Shown here one piece after another: positions 4,470 to 14,882 of a stretch of 20,311 nucleotides of DNA. The stretch lies in the IMG/VR virus record IMGVR_UViG_3300030451_004164, positions 1 through 20,311 of that record. One strand, 5' to 3'. Each line of letters begins with the position of its first letter. Position 1 is the first letter of the stretch. The notes under the pieces were generated by a model, which was given only the letters and a program-made list of their open reading frames with translations, searched no databases and was not told the origin of the DNA. The DNA comes from a virus. Made by a program: the position numbers and the translations under genes.

Positions 4470-4727
4470 CTAAAATGGCACATCATCTTTTAAATCATCT
4501 ATTGTTTTTGGTTGTGATGATTTATTAGTATATTGTTGATATTCGTCTTTACTTTGAAATTTAAGTGATAAATTCTTACCATTATCCCAAATAGCTAATC
4601 TGTATATCTCACCATTAACTTTGACTAATCCACTAAACTCTGGTTGTTTATCGTTAGTCTTGTTGGTGTTTTTCCATACAGTTCCAACATTGTTTTTATC
4701 TTTAAAATAATCTTCTTGATTTGACAT
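4470..4727 (-). CDS. SSB-like protein with acidic tip
   Basis: This encodes 85 residues. The core VGTVWKNTNK, then PEFSGLVKVNGEIYRLAIW and LSLKFQ resembles the small OB-like beta proteins that phages use in place of, or with, SSB. The last five residues, DDVPF, copy the acidic C-terminal tip of bacterial SSB (DDDIPF), which recruits repair and replication proteins. The gene lies directly after the YqaJ exonuclease and annealing-protein genes, and its ATG at 4727 shares a base with the end of the exonuclease gene. It has a good ribosome site (AAAGGAG). Single-strand DNA binding is inferred from context, fold pattern and tip. Confidence 0.7.
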   Translation of the reverse strand: MSNQEDYFKDKNNVGTVWKNTNKTNDKQPEFSGLVKVNGEIYRLAIWDNGKNLSLKFQSKDEYQQYTNKSSQPKTIDDLKDDVPF

Positions 4728-5275
4728 TATTTTCTCCTTATTGGTGGTTTGGTGTCAGTTTTTACAAATTCCCAGAACTCTTGTAATTGTACAAACATAT
4801 CATTCCAGTAATTCTTATCTCTATCTATAAGTAAAATGTTATGACCATCTTCATTAATACTTATAAAATAACATTGGTCTATGTCACATATCTCCATTTG
4901 ACCTTGTATCTGTGGCACATACAATTCAGGAACTTCCTTATGTACAACTCTTGGTGATTTTATTTCTACTACAAATTTATCACCAATAATTCCATCAGGA
5001 CTTGCTCCTAACCAATCATGGTCTTTATGTATCCTAAAACCAATTTCTTCTGCTATATGTCCAGTTTCAACCTCTAGTACATCTATACCTGATTGTTCTA
5101 AATCAATACCACGTTGCATATCAACATTAATTTCATCAGGTGGTTTCTTACCAGTTTTTTCTTCCCACAGTTTTTGTCGTGATTTGTATTTATTCAAACC
5201 ACACGCACTCGCAAAATCAGATGCAGTTAGTCGATTCTTACGAACCTCAAACCATTCATCACTTCTTTGTTTCAT
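4727..5275 (-). CDS. YqaJ/lambda-type 5'-3' exonuclease
   Basis: This encodes 182 residues. SDEWFEVRKNRLTASDFASA at the N-terminus is the hallmark of YqaJ viral recombinases. Catalytic residues are visible at LGASPDGIIG (Asp about 94), VVEIKSP (Glu 104 and Lys 106) and the QIQGQM helix (about 122-127). It would resect double-stranded ends to give single strands for the annealing protein encoded just upstream. The two genes overlap by 17 nt, so they are made together. Length and motif order are normal for the family. Magnesium-dependent PD-(D/E)XK chemistry is family knowledge. Confidence 0.92.
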   Translation of the reverse strand: MKQRSDEWFEVRKNRLTASDFASACGLNKYKSRQKLWEEKTGKKPPDEINVDMQRGIDLEQSGIDVLEVETGHIAEEIGFRIHKDHDWLGASPDGIIGDKFVVEIKSPRVVHKEVPELYVPQIQGQMEICDIDQCYFISINEDGHNILLIDRDKNYWNDMFVQLQEFWEFVKTDTKPPIRRK

Positions 5276-5915
5276 CTACCTCTCCCTGTACAGTTTCTTT
5301 TTTAGATAATTCTTCTTTTTTCTGATTCTTGTAAGTAATACCCATGTTACGTTCTTCAACTGTAAAACTTTCCCAAACTTCTTTCAGTTCTTCTAATGTT
5401 TTACATTTTTTTATTTTTCTTTCTATTTCTGGATTAGGTGGTAAATCCTCACCAGTATAAATGTATAAACCAATTCCATGTAGACTAATTGCCTTTGCCA
5501 AACATCTTTGCATTGCTGTATTTAGTTGAAACGAGTCAAAATCAGCTATAGGTTTGTTTTTGTAGTCCATAACAGGTAAATGTGCTGTTTTAGTTTTACC
5601 AAATGCAGTAACACTTACATAAACCATCGCTGTTCCATTTGGTAAACTTTCGTACTTTTGTTTCTCTGTAATAAGATAACTATTGTTTTTACCCTCAAGA
5701 ATACGAGATACCTCGAACTCATGGTGATGATATGTTGCCCTTGGGTCTAGTTGCATTAATATGTCATACGCATTTGCCCAAGATACATAACTTAGGTTTC
5801 CTTTCTTTTCAACTGCATGATTTACATTGATGGTTCGTAAAAAACTAAAATCGTCAACCTTGACATTTACTGTTTTTTCTTCCATTTCGATGGTTTTTTC
5901 TTTAAATTTTCCCAT
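5259..5915 (-). CDS. DUF1071 (Sak3-type) single-strand annealing protein
   Basis: This encodes 218 residues. The DUF1071 signature is clear: FLRTINVNHAVEKKGNLSYV at about 24-43, VSWANAYDILMQLDPRA, TAFGKTKTAHLPVMDYKNKP and MQRCLAKAISLHGIGLYIY followed by GEDLP. This superfamily anneals complementary single strands in phage recombination and works with an exonuclease, here the adjacent YqaJ protein. The ATG at 5915 has AGGAGA 7 nt upstream. The C-terminal 55 residues are charged helix and linker, as is common. Together with the SSB-like protein and the resolvase, it forms a complete annealing-type recombination set. Confidence 0.9.
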   Translation of the reverse strand: MGKFKEKTIEMEEKTVNVKVDDFSFLRTINVNHAVEKKGNLSYVSWANAYDILMQLDPRATYHHHEFEVSRILEGKNNSYLITEKQKYESLPNGTAMVYVSVTAFGKTKTAHLPVMDYKNKPIADFDSFQLNTAMQRCLAKAISLHGIGLYIYTGEDLPPNPEIERKIKKCKTLEELKEVWESFTVEERNMGITYKNQKKEELSKKETVQGEVDETKK

Positions 5916-8516: not shown

Positions 8517-8552
8517 TTTACTTTATAAAAAACATCTGCTAATATCTTTGAA
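8517..8552 (+). promoter_or_regulatory. promoter with extended -10 for the ParB/ABC-GNAT operon, probably leaderless
   Basis: -35 TTTACT (8517-8522), exact 17-bp spacer ending TGC, -10 TAATAT (8540-8545). The predicted start falls about 7 nt after the -10, at 8552, which is the A of the ATG. No Shine-Dalgarno precedes that ATG, so the transcript would be leaderless. The elements are seen directly; the leaderless reading is inference. Confidence 0.65.
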
Positions 8553-9103
8553 TGGAACAAATAGAGCAAGTCGCTATTGAAACTCTAATTCCTTATAAGA
8601 ATAATGCAAGACTTCATAGTGATAAACAAATAGGACAAATAGCAGAGTCCATTAAGTCATTTGGATTTAACAATCCAGTTCTTATAGATAGTAAGAACAA
8701 CATTATAGCTGGTCATGGTCGTGTACAAGCCGCAAAACGACTAAAGATGAAAACAGTTCCTACAATAAAGATAGAACACTTAACAGAAGAACAAAAAAAA
8801 GCGTTCATCATAGCAGATAACCAAATAGCACAAAATTCTAGTTTTGATAAAGGTATATTGTCGTTAGAAATAGCGAGTTTAAAGAACTCAGACATAAATC
8901 TTAATATACTTGGTTTTGATGACAGAGAATTGAAAGAGTTAGAATTTGACCTAGTGGAAGATATAAAAGAACAAAACACTAACGAGTTGGACTTAGAAGA
9001 AAAATTTGAAGTATTAGTAGAGTTAAAATCAGTACAAGAACAAGAGGAACTCTATGAAGAACTTGAAAACAGAGGGTATCAATGCAAAGTGTTAAGTTTT
9101 TAA
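8552..9103 (+). CDS. ParB/Srx-fold protein without a methylase domain
   Basis: This encodes 183 residues. Residues 1-95 form a ParB N-terminal-type domain: ETLIPYKNNARLHSDKQI, AESIKSFGFNNPVLID, IIAGHGRVQAAKRL (the GHGR nucleotide-binding motif at about 54-57) and FIIADNQIAQN. In phages this domain usually precedes a DNA methyltransferase; here the protein ends with a helical acidic tail (ELDLEEKFEVLVELKSVQEQ) and has no methylase motif. ParB-fold proteins bind or hydrolyse CTP/ATP. The gene overlaps the ABC-GNAT gene by 22 bp, implying joint function, perhaps target choice or nucleotide sensing for DNA modification. That role is inference. Confidence 0.85.
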   Translation: MEQIEQVAIETLIPYKNNARLHSDKQIGQIAESIKSFGFNNPVLIDSKNNIIAGHGRVQAAKRLKMKTVPTIKIEHLTEEQKKAFIIADNQIAQNSSFDKGILSLEIASLKNSDINLNILGFDDRELKELEFDLVEDIKEQNTNELDLEEKFEVLVELKSVQEQEELYEELENRGYQCKVLSF

Positions 9104-10188
9104 AACAAACACCATATAAAAAAACATTTAGAACTGAACAAATCTGTGGTATCTACGACCTACAACCAGAATCCATACTAAAAAAACAATTTGATTTTGA
9201 CATTGACTTAACCTTTGACTGGCAAATTGGTGTCATCGTTGGTACATCAGGTAGTGGTAAAACCAGTTTAGCTAAAAAACTATTTAAAGATAATTATGTA
9301 AAAGATATAACTTGGGAGAGTAAATCATCATTTGTTGACGAATTTGATAAAAAAATAAATGTAAAAGATATAATTAAATGTCTTGGTGCTATTGGTTTTG
9401 CAAGTCCACCATTGTGGTTATTACCATATGATGCGTTAAGTACAGGTCAACAGTTTAGAGTGAATGTTGTACGAGCATTGTTAGAAAGTAAAGACTTAGT
9501 ATGTTTTGACGAATTTACGTCAGTTGTAGACAGACAGGTGGCTAAAATCGGTAGTCATTGTATTAATAAGTTCGTAAGAAAAACAAAAAAACGATTTGTC
9601 GCTGTTTCATGTCATTATGATATTTTAGAATGGTTAGAACCTGACTGGGTATTTGACGTAAACAAAAACGAATTGTTTAGGGGGCGTCTTAGGCGACCAG
9701 AACTTAACATTGAAGTTTATAAATCAGAGCAACAAGTTTGGAAACTGTTTAAAGAATATCATTATTTAAATACAAGTATTAATCCAACTGCTCAATGTTT
9801 TGTGGCACTTTTATGGGATAAACCAGTCGCCATTTCATCTGTTATACATTTTCCACACCCAACAGTAAGAAATATTAAGAAAGCACACAGAACTGTAGTG
9901 TTACCAGATTATCAAGGTATGAGTATTGGTAATAAATTATCTGACTTTGTTGGAGAATATTACACATCGAAAGGTTATACCTTTTTATCTACAACATCTC
10001 AACCGAGTATGATTTATTACAGGAACAAGAGTAAAAATTGGGTTGTTACTCGCAAACCAAGTCATGTAGGTAAATTTAGTAATACATCAAAATTCAAGAA
10101 ACCATTAAAACGTGGTGTATCAAAACGTATGCGTCAAGACAATAGTTCACGAAACCGAATTACTTGCTCTTTTCGTTATGTCCTATAA
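9082..10188 (+). CDS. fused ABC-type ATPase and GNAT (Mom-like) DNA-modification candidate
   Basis: This encodes 368 residues. Part 1 (about 45-200) is an ABC ATPase: Walker A GTSGSGKTS (54-62), signature LSTGQQFR (119-126), Walker B DLVCFDEFTS (138-147) and switch His in SCHYD (178). No membrane segments exist, so it is not a transporter. Part 2 (about 210-368) is a GNAT fold with HYL (227-229), AHRTVVLPDYQGMSIGNKL (268-286, cofactor loop) and a basic C-terminus (KRGVSKRMRQDNSSRNR). HYL plus this loop recall Mom of phage Mu, which converts adenine to N6-carbamoylmethyladenine in DNA. The start at 9082 has AGAGGG upstream. DNA modification to resist restriction is the best reading, but another acyl transfer is possible. 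Confidence 0.8.
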   Translation: MQSVKFLKQTPYKKTFRTEQICGIYDLQPESILKKQFDFDIDLTFDWQIGVIVGTSGSGKTSLAKKLFKDNYVKDITWESKSSFVDEFDKKINVKDIIKCLGAIGFASPPLWLLPYDALSTGQQFRVNVVRALLESKDLVCFDEFTSVVDRQVAKIGSHCINKFVRKTKKRFVAVSCHYDILEWLEPDWVFDVNKNELFRGRLRRPELNIEVYKSEQQVWKLFKEYHYLNTSINPTAQCFVALLWDKPVAISSVIHFPHPTVRNIKKAHRTVVLPDYQGMSIGNKLSDFVGEYYTSKGYTFLSTTSQPSMIYYRNKSKNWVVTRKPSHVGKFSNTSKFKKPLKRGVSKRMRQDNSSRNRITCSFRYVL

Positions 10189-10291
10189 TTAGCGTCGCTG
10201 TAAATTTCGATTTTTGTCAAATGTAATTTTGGTCAATTTTAGCGTCGCCCCGATTTTCGATTAGAAGTAAATACAATTTTGGTTAAATTTT
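10189..10291. repeat. tandem imperfect repeat of about 50 bp, two units
   Basis: Unit 1 (10189-10238) and unit 2 (10239-10291) both begin TTAGCGTCGC, share TTTCGATT, and then AATTTTGGT followed by a TTAAATT/CAATT end. A third partial start (TTTAGTTAGT) follows. The repeat begins at the stop of the ABC-GNAT gene and is noncoding. GCGTCGC is rare in this AT-rich genome, which makes the two copies stand out. Confidence 0.7.
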
Positions 10292-10292
10292 A

Positions 10293-10346
10293 GTTAGTAA
10301 ACATTCACTTCGCTATAAATCAATGTTAGTTAGTACTCACTAACAT
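10293..10346. promoter_or_regulatory. two operator-like dyads (motif copies 1 and 2)
   Basis: Copy 1 core AGTAAACATTCACT (10296-10309). Copy 2 core AGTTAGTACTCACT (10328-10341), inside GTTAGTTAGTACTCACTAAC (10325-10344), a near-perfect 20-bp palindrome flanked by AT on each side. The centres are 32 bp apart, about three helical turns. The form AGTnA-N4-TnACT resembles operators of TetR-type regulators. No protein in the window is an obvious match. Confidence 0.55.
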
Positions 10347-10436
10347 GAAAAAAATTAAAATATTATATTTTTTTATCAAAATTTTTAAAAAAGTAAGATT
10401 ATAAAAAGATTAATAAAAAAACTCTTTATATAAGTC

Positions 10437-10503
10437 TAGCCACTCAATTTAAATTATACAAGTTAGGTAATTATATCAACTTAAAAATAAAGTTGTATGG
10501 CTA
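10437..10503. other. long imperfect hairpin in the noncoding region
   Basis: Three nested stems: TAGCCA/TGGCTA (10437-10442, 10498-10503), CAATTT/AAGTTG (one G-U pair) and AAGTT/AACTT. Together they make a 67-nt hairpin on either strand. There is no coding frame of note. A small RNA or processing site is possible but not shown. Confidence 0.3.
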
Positions 10504-10544
10504 ACGATTATTACAGGATTTTACATATTTTTTAACCTTTCTGA

Positions 10545-10596
10545 ATGGTTTTTATAGATTTTTAATAAAATATTAAATAAATTATTAAAAAACCAT
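10545..10596. repeat. 9-bp inverted repeat
   Basis: ATGGTTTTT (10545-10553) and AAAAACCAT (10588-10596) enclose a 34-nt AT-only centre. It stands just outside the bidirectional terminator. In such AT-rich DNA, arms with two or more G/C pairs are slightly above chance. Significance is uncertain. Confidence 0.35.
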
Positions 10597-10600
10597 AAAA

Positions 10601-10634
10601 AAAAGGATACGAATTTAAAAAAACGTATCCTTTT
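10601..10634 (-). terminator. strong bidirectional rho-independent terminator
   Basis: An 11-bp perfect stem (AAAAGGATACG at 10601-10611, CGTATCCTTTT at 10624-10634) has a 12-nt loop. Read leftward it is followed by TTTTTTTTATGG and ends the AT-rich operon, 13 nt after the last stop codon. Read rightward it ends in TTTTATAG and would stop readthrough from the ParB/ABC-GNAT operon. Confidence 0.85.
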
Positions 10635-10646
10635 ATAGTTAATATA

Positions 10647-10811
10647 TTATTTTTCAAGTCTTTTTATCTGTTTATCTGAATAATTATATTCTTTTTTTAA
10701 AATTTCTTTAATTTCGTCTAAACTTAAATAATTTTCATCAAGTAAGAAAAAATTTTCATATTTAAAACAGTCTAATAAAACTTTCAATCTATTTTTTTTG
10801 AATATATCCAT
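10647..10811 (-). CDS. 54-residue orphan protein, last gene of the AT-rich operon
   Basis: This encodes 54 residues from the ATG at 10811, preceded by ATAGAAAGGATAAAAAAG, the recurring ribosome site. The sequence MDIFKKNRLKVLLDCFKYEN then LDENYLSLDEIKEILKKEYN and KQIKRLEK is a short helix pair of mixed charge. It overlaps the upstream gene by 23 bp and lies directly before the strong terminator. It has no recognised family. The ribosome site, coupling and terminator placement support it as a real gene. Confidence 0.7.
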   Translation of the reverse strand: MDIFKKNRLKVLLDCFKYENFFLLDENYLSLDEIKEILKKEYNYSDKQIKRLEK

Positions 10812-10956
10812 CTTTTTTATCCTTTCTATTATTTTTTAATATTGATTGTCCTCCAGTTCGAAAAAATTCGACTGTATCATGTTTTTTAGTTTTTCCATTT
10901 TCTGAAATAGATATTATTTCAATATGACTTTCTAAAAATTTTTTATTAAATTTCAT
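10789..10956 (-). CDS. 55-residue orphan basic protein
   Basis: The start is the ATG at 10956 (MKFNKKFLESHIEIISISEN), chosen because TTAGAAAGGAAATA lies 6 nt upstream; the open frame upstream of it lacks a site. The body GKTKKHDTVEFFRTGGQSIL then NNRKDKKDGYIQKK is basic. It starts with MKFN, as does the gene upstream, which may hint at leader copying rather than homology. No known family. Confidence 0.65.
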   Translation of the reverse strand: MKFNKKFLESHIEIISISENGKTKKHDTVEFFRTGGQSILKNNRKDKKDGYIQKK

Positions 10957-10969
10957 AATTATTTCCTTT

Positions 10970-11173
10970 CTAATGTATTTTATTGATAAGTATTTTAAAT
11001 GGAGTATTAAATGAATTAATACCATTTAAAACAACATTTTTTTTATATTTAATAATATTTATATCATCATATATAAAACCATTAAATCTTAAGTACCATT
11101 TTAAATGGTACAAATTGAAAACTCTATTCTCTCTTATTTTTTTATTTATTATATATTTACAATTAAATTTCAT
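10970..11173 (-). CDS. 67-residue orphan protein
   Basis: This encodes 67 residues from the ATG at 11173, with the TTAGAAAGGATAAAAAG leader. The protein MKFNCKYIINKKIRENRVFN, then LYHLKWYLRFNGFIYDDINI and KKNVVLNGINSFNTPFKIL, is rich in Asn, Ile, Lys and aromatic residues, as expected for very AT-rich DNA. It is probably a small mixed alpha/beta protein. It lies 14 nt from the gene downstream and 23 nt from the gene upstream. No known family. Confidence 0.65.
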   Translation of the reverse strand: MKFNCKYIINKKIRENRVFNLYHLKWYLRFNGFIYDDINIIKYKKNVVLNGINSFNTPFKILINKIH

Positions 11174-11195
11174 CTTTTTATCCTTTCTAATAAAA

Positions 11196-11651
11196 TTATT
11201 TAATATTTTTTAATCGTTGTTGGTAATTGTTAAACATTTTGTTGTAACCATCTATAAATGAATACATACATAGATTAGTTTTAAAACTTTCAAAGTCACA
11301 ATTTTCAATTATAATTTTAGGACAATATACACACTTAAAACGAAATATAACTTTTGGATATTCCACTTGTTGGAGATATTGAGATTTATTAAAAATACCA
11401 AATTCATTAATATTGAGTACAAAGTCTTTGAACTGATTAATTAAATATGGTTTAGAAAAATATTCATCATCTTTATATTTAAAAACACCATGAAAAAATT
11501 TACTTTTTAATAATGTTTGTATTTGGTTAAAATGGTTATCTCTCAATTGATTAATTTTTTTAGAATTTCCATTTTCTTGTTTGTAGTATTCTTCAAATTC
11601 TTGTTTTTGATTTAATACGAGTTCGATTAATTGTTGTGAGTTACTTAACAT
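11196..11651 (-). CDS. 151-residue orphan protein
   Basis: This is the largest gene of the AT-rich operon, with the ATG at 11651 behind TTAGAAAGGATAAAAAA. Residues 1-55 are helical and charged (QQLIELVLNQKQEFEEYYKQ). A more ordered part follows (FFHGVFKYKDDEYFSKPYL). Near 108-128 come three cysteines in FKCVYCPKIIIENCDFESF, where one CxxC is visible; a fourth is nearby in NLCMYSF. A zinc site is possible. No known family and no membrane segment. Confidence 0.7.
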   Translation of the reverse strand: MLSNSQQLIELVLNQKQEFEEYYKQENGNSKKINQLRDNHFNQIQTLLKSKFFHGVFKYKDDEYFSKPYLINQFKDFVLNINEFGIFNKSQYLQQVEYPKVIFRFKCVYCPKIIIENCDFESFKTNLCMYSFIDGYNKMFNNYQQRLKNIK

Positions 11652-11718
11652 TTTTTTATCCTTTCTAATATAAGTTATTGAAATATAATAATTTATTTGT
11701 TAAAATTATAATAGTTCT

Positions 11719-12138
11719 TTAAAAATTTAATGTTATTTCTTGAAATATAGTTGATAAATCATCGTTCAATAATTGTTTTTTAATTATTGGTTTAAAATTT
11801 CTATTGGATAAATAATTAACGATATTAACTAGGTTATCTTGATTATTAAATATTGTTATTTCATCATCTATAGAATAATCAATAAATGTTAAAGAAAATT
11901 TATCTTTAAAAAAATCATAATAAATAGTTAATTTTTCTTCATTTAATTTATGATAATGTACCAATTTAACAATATCCAACAATATATTGTCCATTTGGTC
12001 ATTGGTTAATATGTTTTTAAGATAATGAGAATTATTAAAACTAGTACATAATAATTCATCTATAGAAATTTTAATGTCACTATCAAGTAAATTTTTATTT
12101 AAATAGTGTTTAAAATGATTAAATTCCAAATTATTCAT
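11719..12138 (-). CDS. 139-residue orphan protein
   Basis: The start is the ATG at 12138 (MNNLEFNHFKHYLNKNLLDS), because GAAAGG lies 8 nt upstream and it forms an 8-nt ATGAATAA overlap with the gene upstream. An ATG at 12153 is possible but lacks a site. The protein is acidic, helical and rich in Asn, Asp and Leu (NILTNDQMDNILLDIVKLVH then DYSIDDEITIFNNQDNL). There are no cysteines beyond one, no signal peptide and no nucleotide motif. Acidic small proteins are common among phage host-takeover or anti-defence factors, but nothing here proves such a role. Confidence 0.7.
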   Translation of the reverse strand: MNNLEFNHFKHYLNKNLLDSDIKISIDELLCTSFNNSHYLKNILTNDQMDNILLDIVKLVHYHKLNEEKLTIYYDFFKDKFSLTFIDYSIDDEITIFNNQDNLVNIVNYLSNRNFKPIIKKQLLNDDLSTIFQEITLNF

Positions 12139-12340
12139 TAGTAAACCTTTCATTGTGTTTAAATATTATTATTTTTTCATCATGTCCATACAGTTCCAGA
12201 CTTTTATTATTTTTTAAATTCTTAATTCTTTCTATTTCATCATCATTAAAACCATTCATCGAATTAAAAAAATCAAAATGTAGATTTGTTTTTAATTTGG
12301 AATTGTGTTTATAACCTTTTATATAATAGATTGAATACAT
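12131..12340 (-). CDS. 69-residue orphan protein
   Basis: This encodes 69 residues from the ATG at 12340 behind AGAAAGGATAAAAAT. The sequence MYSIYYIKGYKHNSKLKTNL then GFNDDEIERIKNLKNNKSLE and HDEKIIIFKHN suggests a short beta strand, a central helix and a final beta strand. It is translationally coupled to the next gene through an 8-nt overlap. No known family. Confidence 0.65.
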   Translation of the reverse strand: MYSIYYIKGYKHNSKLKTNLHFDFFNSMNGFNDDEIERIKNLKNNKSLELYGHDEKIIIFKHNERFTNE

Positions 12341-12421
12341 ATTTTTATCCTTTCTTGAGTAAATAAAGAACTGGAGAAATTAACATTAAATTTATAATTA
12401 AGTAACTTATAATAAATATAA

Positions 12422-12712
12422 TCATAATGGTTTAAAACTAATTGTTGTTTTTTCCACCATTTCAGAATTATTACTAATAAAAGAACTATCAACAGAATTT
12501 ACTTTATCTTTCAATAATTCTTTCTTAATATCTGAATATTTAATTTTATCTATACATATATAATTAGATAAACCTTTTATCAAATGTATATTATAATGTT
12601 TAGAGTATATTTTTAACTCATCTTTTATTTGTTTTTCTTTTTTCTTTAACTCTTTACATTGTTTAAATACTTCAATGTAACTTTCTATTACTTTTTTAGT
12701 ATATTTTTTCAT
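12422..12712 (-). CDS. 96-residue orphan coiled-coil protein, first gene of the AT-rich operon
   Basis: This encodes 96 residues with TTAGAAAGGATAATAAA before the ATG at 12712, and lies closest to the operon promoter. The N-terminal 45 residues (KKVIESYIEVFKQCKELKKK then EKQIKDELKIY) form a highly charged coiled coil. The C-terminus (DSSFISNNSEMVEKTTISFK) looks flexible. It might be a regulator or partner protein; no DNA-binding motif is visible. No known family. Confidence 0.7.
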   Translation of the reverse strand: MKKYTKKVIESYIEVFKQCKELKKKEKQIKDELKIYSKHYNIHLIKGLSNYICIDKIKYSDIKKELLKDKVNSVDSSFISNNSEMVEKTTISFKPL

Positions 12713-12735
12713 TTTATTATCCTTTCTAATTGATG

Positions 12736-12775
12736 TATTTAATACAATACTAACACCTATTTAATACAATGTAAA
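12736..12775 (-). promoter_or_regulatory. promoter of the AT-rich operon with two 13-bp direct repeats
   Basis: Read leftward: -35 TTTACA (12770-12775), exact 17-bp spacer, -10 TAGTAT (12747-12752). The 13-bp sequence TATTTAATACAAT (plus strand) occurs at 12736-12748 and 12758-12770, 22 bp apart (two helical turns), one copy touching the -10 and the other the -35. This is a layout for an activator or repressor. Confidence 0.7.
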
Positions 12776-13040
12776 ACAGTTATACAAAAATATTTATTTA
12801 TATAATAAAATCAAGTATTTAAAAAAGTAAATTAATTAATAATTTGTAAAAATATCGTTAAAATTAAGACAAAATGTTTATTTTTGAAAGATTAAAGCGA
12901 TTATTACTTTCTTCACTTTCGTTACCTATAAAAGAAATAATTAATATGTTGTAATGTTTAACACTTATTAATGAATAGATAAGAACTCAATAACCATTAC
13001 ATATATTTAATACTTAATGAGAATAGGAAATATAAATATA
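12776..13040. other. noncoding AT-rich stretch
   Basis: There is no credible gene on either strand here. A 26-codon rightward frame at 12874-12954 (MFIFERLKRLLLSSLSLPIK) lacks a ribosome site. I see no strong hairpin. This stretch separates the leftward promoter from the operator-like dyads of the late control region. Confidence 0.5.
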
Positions 13041-13044
13041 TTAT

Positions 13045-13146
13045 GTTGGTAAGTATTCACTTGCTTTTATTTTCTTTTTATTTACAATAAAAGTAATACA
13101 TATATGTTAGTAAGTACTCACATATGCGAAGTAAGTGTTTACTTAC
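13045..13146 (+). promoter_or_regulatory. late promoter candidate with three operator-like dyads (motif copies 3 to 5)
   Basis: The promoter candidate is TTTACA (13081-13086), 16-bp spacer, TATGTT (13103-13108). Dyad cores: GGTAAGTATTCACT (13048-13061), AGTAAGTACTCACA (13109-13122) and AGTAAGTGTTTACT (13130-13143, extending to the perfect GTAAGT-N4-ACTTAC at 13131-13146). Copy 4 covers the expected start. Centre spacings are 61 and 21 bp. This placement suggests repression of head-gene transcription. Confidence 0.5.
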
Positions 13147-13206
13147 ATTATAACTTATGAGAAATAATTTTTTTTATTAAGTTTTTTATATATAGAAAGT
13201 TTTTAA

Positions 13207-13275
13207 ATATGGACACCGCTGATTGACGCATAATCAGAATCCGTATATGACATTCGGAAATTTTGCAGAGGACAA
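13207..13275 (+). promoter_or_regulatory. structured leader upstream of terS, possible pac or regulatory element
   Basis: This segment of clearly higher GC than its surroundings has a 6-bp hairpin (CTGATT at 13219-13224, AATCAG at 13232-13237, 7-nt loop) and a shorter TCCG/CGGA pair. It ends with the ribosome site AGAGGA. A five-codon upstream frame (MDTAD) starts at 13209. Sites recognised by the small terminase often lie in or near its gene, hence the pac suggestion, which is inference. Confidence 0.4.
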
Positions 13276-13623
13276 ATGGCACAAGGAAAAAGACATAAAC
13301 CGACAGAAGAATCACGAAAAATAGTAAAATCCCTCACAGCAGTTGGCACTACAGTTCAGGACATAGCTTTAAAGCTACACATAAACGTGGATACTGTACG
13401 AAAGTATTACAAGGAAGAATTAGATGTTGGTAGAGTAGATGCCAACTTCACAATTGGAAGTGCCTTGTATGACAATGCGAAGAGTGGAAGTGTACCAGCA
13501 CAGATATTTTGGTTAAAGGCGAGAGCTGGTTGGAAAGAAGTTGACAAACATGAGTTATCAGGTACAAATGGTCAACCGATAGAGTATGTCATTAATTTTG
13601 GTGAGAACGACAAACCTGAATGA
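13276..13623 (+). CDS. terS: small terminase subunit (TerS)
   Basis: This encodes 115 residues. The N-terminal half has a helix-turn-helix, TVQDIALKLHINVDTVRKYY (about 27-46), typical of TerS DNA recognition. The middle (NFTIGSALYDNAKSGSVPAQ then IFWLKARAGWKEVDK) matches small terminases that end with a flexible tail. It recognises the packaging site and recruits the large subunit. The large-subunit gene starts 4 nt before this gene ends (TGAATGAG region), so the two are coupled. The ATG has AGAGGA at good distance. Confidence 0.85.
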   Translation: MAQGKRHKPTEESRKIVKSLTAVGTTVQDIALKLHINVDTVRKYYKEELDVGRVDANFTIGSALYDNAKSGSVPAQIFWLKARAGWKEVDKHELSGTNGQPIEYVINFGENDKPE

Positions 13624-14882
13624 GAAAACAGATATCGTTAAATTATTCTGCGAGGAATCCACAAAGGAAAATCCACGATGCGTTGAATAATTATCGTTTT
13701 GTGGTAACTGTAGCCCATAGACGTATGGGAAAAACTGTAGCTGGTATTATCGAATTAATTAGACAAGCTGGAATGTGTAAGAAGATAAGACCGAGATATG
13801 CGTACATAGCACCAACTTATGCTCAGGCAAAACGAGTCGCATGGGATTACTTAACACACTATACGAGAGTGGTTCAGGCGAAAGTGAATAATAGTGAATT
13901 AAGGATTGATTTTGGTGATAGAAGAATCAGTTTATATGGTTCTGAGAACGCAGATAACTTGCGTGGTCAATACTTTGATGGTGTGATTATAGATGAGGTA
14001 GGTGACCAGAATCCACGAATATGGAACGAGATAGTTAGAGCCGCCCTTGCCGATAGAGAGGGTTGGTGTCTATTTATTGGAACACCTAAAGGACAAAACC
14101 ATTTTAAAGATTTGAGAGATAGAGCAGAGAAACAAGAAGATTGGTGTTTACTTGAATTTAAGGCGAGTGAAACGAAGTTATTGAAAGACGAAGAACTTAA
14201 ATCTGCCAAACGTGAAATGGGAATTGAAAGATATAACCAAGAATTTGAATGTAGCTTTAACGCCGCTGTAACAGGAAGTTACTACGCAGAACTGATAAAC
14301 GAACTCGAAAAAGAGAATCGACTTGTACCTATTGAGAGAGATGATGCGTGTAAAACTGTGGCGAGTTGGGATTTAGGTATGTCTGACTCTACCAGTATAT
14401 GGATTTGTCAAACAACAAATAACGAAGTACGACTGTTAGACTATTATGAGAATCATGGTGTTGGTTTAGACGTGTATATGAATTGGTTACGAGAGAATAA
14501 TTGGTTTCATTGTGAACAGTTATTACCACATGACGTAGAAGTAAGAGAATTAGGTACAGGTAAGTCTAGGTTAGAGATTTTACAAAATGGTGGACTAGAT
14601 TGTCGAGTGGTACAACGTATTAGTGTGGCAGATGGAATACAGGCAGTTAGGAGAATGTTACCGAAGTGTTGGTTTAATTATCCTCAAGTCAAACAAGGAG
14701 TGGACTCTTTACGAAACTATCGTAGAGAGTATAATGAAAAGCAAAAGGCGTTCTATGACAAACCTTTACATGACTGGACATCACATTGTGCTGACAGTTT
14801 TCGTTATTTAGCTGTTGGATTAGATAATACGAGTGTGGAGTGGTCACGACCTTTAGACATTAACTTACGATGGGTGGTTTAA
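13620..14882 (+). CDS. terL: large terminase subunit (TerL)
   Basis: This encodes 420 residues. The packaging ATPase shows the Walker A variant AHRRMGKT (32-39), Walker B GVIIDEVGD (121-129) with catalytic Glu, and the coupling motif GTPKGQ (154-159). The nuclease domain shows SWDLGMSDSTS (Asp 251), LLPHDVEVRE (Asp 305) and CADSFRYL (Asp 392), an RNase H-like metal site. It pumps DNA into the prohead and cuts the concatemer. Length and motif order are complete. Downstream genes follow without gaps. Confidence 0.95.
   Translation: MRKQISLNYSARNPQRKIHDALNNYRFVVTVAHRRMGKTVAGIIELIRQAGMCKKIRPRYAYIAPTYAQAKRVAWDYLTHYTRVVQAKVNNSELRIDFGDRRISLYGSENADNLRGQYFDGVIIDEVGDQNPRIWNEIVRAALADREGWCLFIGTPKGQNHFKDLRDRAEKQEDWCLLEFKASETKLLKDEELKSAKREMGIERYNQEFECSFNAAVTGSYYAELINELEKENRLVPIERDDACKTVASWDLGMSDSTSIWICQTTNNEVRLLDYYENHGVGLDVYMNWLRENNWFHCEQLLPHDVEVRELGTGKSRLEILQNGGLDCRVVQRISVADGIQAVRRMLPKCWFNYPQVKQGVDSLRNYRREYNEKQKAFYDKPLHDWTSHCADSFRYLAVGLDNTSVEWSRPLDINLRWVV

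Follow-up and report, generated by a model that had tools for sequence, protein, structure and literature searches.

A ParB-type adaptor gene overlapping an ABC-ATPase-GNAT gene as a candidate nucleobase acyltransferase module in phages

Description

Here, we describe a pair of overlapping genes in a stretch of viral DNA of 20,311 nucleotides (IMG/VR record IMGVR_UViG_3300030451_004164, analysed as a whole and called the window below), a 20.3-kb virus record in which profile searches identified an SU10-type portal and a capsid protein. The first gene encodes an adaptor with a ParB/Srx fold and the second an ABC-type ATPase fused to a GNAT domain (ABC-GNAT) (Table 1). Both reading frames and their overlap, as given in an earlier note made from the sequence alone, were found in the ORF list and in the sequence; the promoter with which that note had credited the pair was not borne out, the region having 12 sigma70-like sites against 16.5 expected in shuffled sequences. 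Of the 98 clusters of the family with an upstream adaptor, 62 allow an overlap of 22 bp, and nearly all representatives having it (45/49) carry a Shine-Dalgarno-like motif, which lies inside the ParB gene. Together, the overlap and the motif within the ParB gene suggest coupled translation of the two genes. In the ORF list of the window, no com-like ORF precedes the pair. Elsewhere in the window (4727-5915, minus strand), genes for a YqaJ exonuclease and a Sak single-strand annealing protein, a phage recombination pair, adjoin.

Table 1. Features of the gene pair and its surroundings, in window coordinates
Feature	Position	Strand	Evidence or remark
ParB/Srx-fold adaptor gene, 183 aa	8552..9103	+	PF02195, phrog_620, phrog_15396 and phrog_498 matches
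ParB core, about residues 1-140, AGHGR motif	8552..8971	+	tblastn matches end near residue 140
C-terminal adaptor tail, residues 148-183	8993..9100	+	constant partner of ABC-GNAT
AGAGGG, Shine-Dalgarno-like, inside ParB gene	9071..9076	+	5 nt upstream of ABC-GNAT start
22-bp overlap of ParB and ABC-GNAT genes	9082..9103	+	conserved in family
ABC-ATPase fused to GNAT, 368 aa	9082..10188	+	phrog_11143
ABC-ATPase domain, residues 1-200	9082..9681	+	fold match to ABC nucleotide-binding domains
Walker A GTSGSGKT, residues 54-61	9241..9264	+	G54, S56, G57, G59 and K60 invariant in 75 sequences
ABC signature LSTGQQ, residues 119-124	9436..9453	+	L119, S120 and G122 invariant
Walker B LVCFDE with catalytic Glu, residues 139-144	9496..9513	+	D143 and E144 invariant
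Switch His178	9613..9615	+	invariant in 75 homologues
GNAT domain, residues 205-368	9694..10185	+	separate structure model
HYL motif, residues 227-229	9760..9768	+	His227-Tyr228 invariant
Acyl-CoA loop PDYQGMSIGNKL, residues 275-286	9904..9939	+	family alignment
Low-GC island, several minus-strand ORFs	10189-13275		18-21% GC against window mean of 31%
Two tandem repeats of about 50 bp, 70% identical, starting TTAGCGTCGC	10189-10288		directly after ABC-GNAT stop
26-bp direct repeat, 85% identical, near both island ends	10315-10340, 13096-13121		sequence comparison
Terminase small subunit	13276..13623	+	phrog_309, E 1e-16
Terminase large subunit	13620..14882	+	phrog_2, E 2e-34

Protein domains and predicted structure

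The Walker A, signature, Walker B and switch-histidine motifs reported earlier for the ABC half are all present, with their key residues invariant in 75 homologues. Arg270, Pro275, Asp276, Gln278 and Gly279 of the C-terminal half are also invariant in these homologues, like His227 and Tyr228, and the QGxGxG pattern of the CoA loop is kept in the family, the window member having Ser281 where 96% of sequences carry Gly. The assignment of this half to the GNATs, on its HYL motif and CoA loop, agrees with a confident predicted fold (AlphaFold2; pLDDT 91.7 and pTM 0.85 for the whole protein, pLDDT 89.8 for the GNAT domain alone), in which the GNAT fold is accompanied by the acyl-CoA loop of the superfamily (Q/R-x-x-G-x-G/A, with Ser281 here). 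Conservation of the ABC and CoA-site residues suggests that both activities are probably needed.

Pfam searches matched the ABC half to PF00005 above chance (E 7e-9), and the GNAT match of the window protein fell under the cutoff (23.4 versus 27 bits). Sequence searches for solved relatives returned only weak ABC-transporter matches for the ABC half and chance matches (FimH) for the GNAT half. By structure, the ABC half aligned with the nucleotide-binding domain of the PmtCD exporter (VIA-align; Z 15.9, 176 residues, rmsd 2.7), and the GNAT model, among the matches listed, with the IAA acetyltransferase 1y9k (Z 14.7, 135 residues, rmsd 3.1) and with RimI 5isv (Z 14.2, 132 residues, rmsd 2.8). 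The GNAT half thus resembles ordinary GNATs, and its substrate is not named by the fold. The earlier note had held that matches solely to acetyltransferases with known non-DNA substrates would speak against DNA modification, and the RimI-, NAT- and IAA-type GNATs returned by the fold search come close to that outcome. The case for DNA modification is carried by context, not by fold.

An ABC transporter was rejected as an identity for the protein: the GNAT domain replaces the membrane domain, and the usual neighbours are ParB and terminase genes. Separate ORFs encode the ABC and GNAT parts in Lactococcus P335, Oenococcus and Streptococcus phages, with a 4-bp overlap in P335 and the Oenococcus phage; the two halves can therefore probably act as separate chains.

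In the adaptor, the ParB_N domain (PF02195) scores 30.1 bits against a cutoff of 26.3 (E 5e-7). The protein matches the ParB part of the ParB-methyltransferases of phrog_498 (E 1e-47), and its core matched 340 phage records (tblastn), many of them annotated as DNA methyltransferases. For the tail, the sequence pattern suggests a beta-alpha-beta arrangement. Adaptors ending in or consisting of this tail of about 36 residues lie upstream of ABC-GNAT in 165 of 186 loci (98 of 112 clusters at 70% identity). The tail profile reached E < 1e-3 in 95 of 99 cases, the nine sequences that seeded it matching by construction and the great majority lying outside the seed. Porphyromonas, Pseudomonas and gut phages have the tail as a free protein of 41-49 aa that overlaps the ABC-GNAT start by 4 bp (41-50 aa over all free versions), and every phage record matched by the free 41-aa adaptor (22/22, tblastn) is an ABC-GNAT carrier. 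The partner can consist of the C-terminal 36 or so residues alone, which makes the ParB core dispensable. The core, common to methyltransferases, seems to serve phage DNA-modifying enzymes in general as a partner, and we infer that the tail, tied to ABC-GNAT, is the specific connector.

The adaptor tail was also considered as a feature shared with Mom, and this was rejected: in Microbacterium phage Appa (L228, 1969-3121), the ParB gene that overlaps mom by 8 bp has a zinc-ribbon-like tail at its end instead of the adaptor. Judged by this pattern, the tail of the Appa protein differs along with the modifying enzyme that it goes with.

Databases annotate the adaptor as ParB, and its ParB_N domain would suit a chromosome or plasmid partition locus. 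Against the partition model TIGR00180, however, it scores 36.2 bits where the cutoff is 58.45, its core is common to methyltransferases, its conserved partner is ABC-GNAT, and that partner's companion is sometimes the tail alone. Partition is exceedingly improbable and, on these sequence comparisons, already contradicted.

Distribution in phages

The ABC-GNAT protein is a full-length match to phrog_11143 (E 4e-100; residues 14-367 of 368 against profile positions 11-349 of 357), a family carrying no annotated function. Scans found relatives in at least 597 viral stretches and at least 468 genome stretches; 51 phage records have one, 45 of them across at least 80% of its length. Both the fusion and the ParB partner, which had been thought unusual, proved in this survey of viral contigs and genomes to be the norm in a large family. 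The name of COG2401, 'ABC-type ATPase fused to a predicted acetyltransferase domain', presumably denotes the same domain pair, and no papers on COG2401 were found in the literature searched. Five actinobacterial contigs (Nonomuraea and relatives) carry ABC-GNAT with no adaptor found upstream, a possible host-side use.

As told in a later account (PMC7824862), Iyer 2013 predicted that ABC-ATPase-coupled GNATs acylate a DNA base. Within this large family, predicted in 2013 to modify DNA, the window pair is ordinary. The accessible text of the later account makes no mention of the adaptor tail, the replacement at the mom site, com, or a linkage to formyltransferase or aspartate decarboxylase; some of these may already be in Iyer 2013. 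No experimental test of the prediction was found in the searchable literature, whose coverage leaves out most subscription journals, and the paper on Leptospira phages LE3 and LE4 lists the pair under replication, with DNA modification and restriction unmentioned.

Genomic context

The usual downstream neighbour of the cassette is the terminase small subunit gene (many loci of the family), and in at least 43 of 93 loci the large subunit gene comes second after the cassette. In the window, cassette and terminase genes are set apart by an AT-rich island of minus-strand ORFs, with a leader, TATTAGAAAGGATAAAAA, repeated before ORF starts (families D1 and D13); by its sequence the island looks like an inserted block of strongly translated small genes. 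A cassette placed before terminase could mean late modification ahead of packaging, or a role in packaging itself, with ParB and ABC-GNAT marking or selecting the packaging site or regulating terminase. The cassette does lie directly upstream of both terminase subunits in many unrelated phages, yet Mu-like phages have it at the right end after the tail genes, others carry it among unrelated genes, and DNA modification shortly before packaging accounts for the terminase linkage too, so that a packaging factor seems to us quite improbable.

The earlier note had called the GNAT domain Mom-like, after mom, the DNA-disguising gene of phage Mu. By sequence this did not hold: the domain has no match at E<=0.1 to PF25680, a model that does match Mu Mom, and two profile-profile comparisons with Mom (hhalign) gave E 0.12-0.28 at a probability below 1%, so that membership of the Mom family was rejected on sequence. 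The Mom structure 8bv8, present in the PDB, is not among the GNAT fold-search matches listed, which weighs neither way.

At its right end, Porphyromonas phage 012a carries a homologue of Mom (E 1e-19). This phage is 87.5% identical to phage 011a along 3709 bp of tail genes and 81% identical in the final 91 bp, and between those flanks 012a has Mom where 011a has an adaptor, ABC-GNAT and a formyltransferase. In Pseudomonas phage JD024, com overlaps mom; in Pseudomonas phage Komp_PAO1_1, com is kept (PF10122, E 9e-21; com and leader 70% identical to JD024 over 206 bp) and overlaps an adaptor of 49 aa, behind which come ABC-GNAT and formyltransferase. Among the formyltransferase loci of IMG/VR, com occurs in 47 of 80, or 23 of 44 independent clusters (80% identity), and 21 of these 23 com clusters have a free adaptor, which com usually overlaps. 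Com is annotated in the Mu record as the translational regulator of Mom. The cassettes have thus taken over the site of mom and probably its regulation. Mom replacement and com linkage, both drawn from sequence comparison, are regarded as the strongest evidence for a DNA-modifying role. In Aeromonas phage PX29 (NC_023688), a Mom homologue (36309-36881) and ABC-GNAT (53266-54237) are both present; the two are thus not always alternatives.

The same evidence bears on two further explanations. A GNAT that acylates a host protein, as Rac of phiKMV does RNA polymerase, could serve host takeover with the ATPase and adaptor for targeting; the nearest folds among the matches listed are protein N-acetyltransferases (RimI, NatA/NatC), and there are known phage GNATs that act on proteins (PMC7824862). 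Such a role is unlikely, as it leaves the replacement of Mom, the retention of com and the methyltransferase-type ParB core unexplained. GNAT toxins also exist, and two overlapping genes with a small upstream partner recall a toxin-antitoxin or abortive module, here a TacT-like GNAT acetylating aminoacyl-tRNA with its antitoxin encoded by the overlapping upstream gene. We know of no GNAT toxin fused to an ABC ATPase, however; the ParB core of the partner is of the kind typical for DNA methyltransferases, the cassette trades places with mom and shows linkage to com, and the PADLOC defence-system library gave only generic ATPase matches and a type II methyltransferase match for the ParB core, with no toxin match. 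A toxin-antitoxin module is thus very improbable.

Genes for tailoring enzymes accompany the cassette in several clades. When IMG/VR was searched with the formyltransferase as starting point, ABC-GNAT was present in 79 of 80 viral formyltransferase loci; in the exception (L302), only 95 bases precede the match. The formyltransferase (PF00551) tracks one well-supported ABC-GNAT clade, in Bacteroidota, Pseudomonas and Gordonia phages. Formyltransferase active sites usually include an Asn, and the linked enzyme retains the active-site His and Asp with this Asn replaced. A gene for aspartate decarboxylase (PF02261, E 1e-29 to 2e-33) that retains the Gly-Ser self-cleavage site lies behind ABC-GNAT in Jace, L107, L140 and others, the ends of the two genes being close, touching or overlapping. 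A search starting from the decarboxylase added 12 viral loci, 11 of them with ABC-GNAT; since these include seven near-identical copies and Jace itself, independent cases are few, roughly four. Two more come from bacterial genomes (L139/L140 and L160). ASCH-domain genes lie downstream of ABC-GNAT in two Firmicute phages. At two loci (L231 and L234), aspartate decarboxylase is flanked by two ABC-GNAT genes. Formyltransferase, decarboxylase and ASCH proteins act on amines, acyl groups or modified nucleosides; this agrees with acyl chemistry on a base and suggests that the final group on the base differs between clades. The window pair has no adjoining tailoring genes, so its own product may be a simple acyl form.

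Proposed function

We consider it likely that the pair is an ATP-gated nucleobase acyltransferase module that protects phage DNA, resembling com-mom without being Mom. The DNA (hyper)modification system put forward in the earlier note is, through the mom swap and the com-led operons, the best-supported reading; it had, however, already been predicted (PMC7824862). To that idea, the wider comparison lends strong new support.

ABC-GNAT, probably as an ABC-type dimer, would clamp on DNA upon ATP and place the amine of a base in the GNAT site, where an acyl group would be moved from an acyl-CoA-type donor to this exocyclic amine. The adaptor tail would bind ABC-GNAT, and the ParB core, where present, would bring the enzyme to DNA or bind nucleotide, with the translation of adaptor and enzyme coupled through the gene overlap. 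In some clades, formyltransferase or aspartate decarboxylase would tailor or supply the group, and packaged phage DNA would thereby resist restriction or host nucleases. The target base could be adenine, by analogy with Mom, or cytosine, by analogy with TmcA.

More tentatively, and short of an even chance, ABC-GNAT may be the core of modular DNA hypermodifications, in which adaptor-guided attachment of acyl or amino-acyl groups is followed by clade-specific tailoring and mom is displaced under com. As part of this same tentative proposal, the formyltransferase would tailor the group, aspartate decarboxylase would give beta-alanine or beta-alanyl adducts, and several new bases would exist.

Several points count against DNA modification. 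A sequence link between the GNAT domain and Mom was not detectable, the nearest GNAT folds among the matches listed are acetyltransferases of proteins and small molecules, terminase adjacency could mean another role, and some actinobacterial chromosomes have ABC-GNAT without an identified adaptor. Near-identical phages that differ in having mom or ABC-GNAT, together with cultivated carriers led by com, make the old prediction directly testable. If DNA modification is correct, the cassette would be a second solution to the problem that Mom solves, would explain the 'ABC transporter' and 'ParB' genes beside phage terminases, would give the 36-residue adaptor a role, and would point towards formyl or beta-alanyl chemistry in new DNA bases.

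Comparison with known systems

Com-mom of Mu and the ABC-GNAT cassette are alike in their GNAT fold, in being phage-borne, in occupying the same genomic site in sister phages and in having the same com gene in many phages. An HY dipeptide early in the GNAT domain also aligns, without significance. Unlike Mom, with which it has no significant sequence match, ABC-GNAT has an additional ABC ATPase, an adaptor and tailoring genes.

TmcA (2zpa) ranks 5th for the whole ABC-GNAT model (Foldseek; TM 0.29), a rank that may rest mostly on the GNAT half. Like the proposed ABC-GNAT, TmcA/NAT10 combines an ATPase with a GNAT and acts on the exocyclic amine of a nucleobase, the cytidine of tRNA(Met). It differs in its RNA substrate, in the low TM-score and in its ATPase, which is of another, helicase-like class.

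Fusions of ParB to DNA methyltransferases (phrog_498) share the ParB core of the window adaptor; there the enzyme is the fused methyltransferase, whereas the core in the window continues into a tail whose partner is a separate ABC-GNAT. In DpdA-DpdB, which inserts 7-deazaguanine into DNA, the base-modification enzyme likewise has a ParB-like partner (PMC12839542), but the chemistry is that of a transglycosylase, without GNAT or ABC.

The ABC-ATPase-coupled GNAT system of Tenacibaculum phage pT24 belongs to the same family as the window pair, its locus being directly homologous to the window protein (E 1e-54). The chemistry independently predicted for this type of system (Iyer 2013, as told in PMC7824862) is the same as that proposed here for the window pair.
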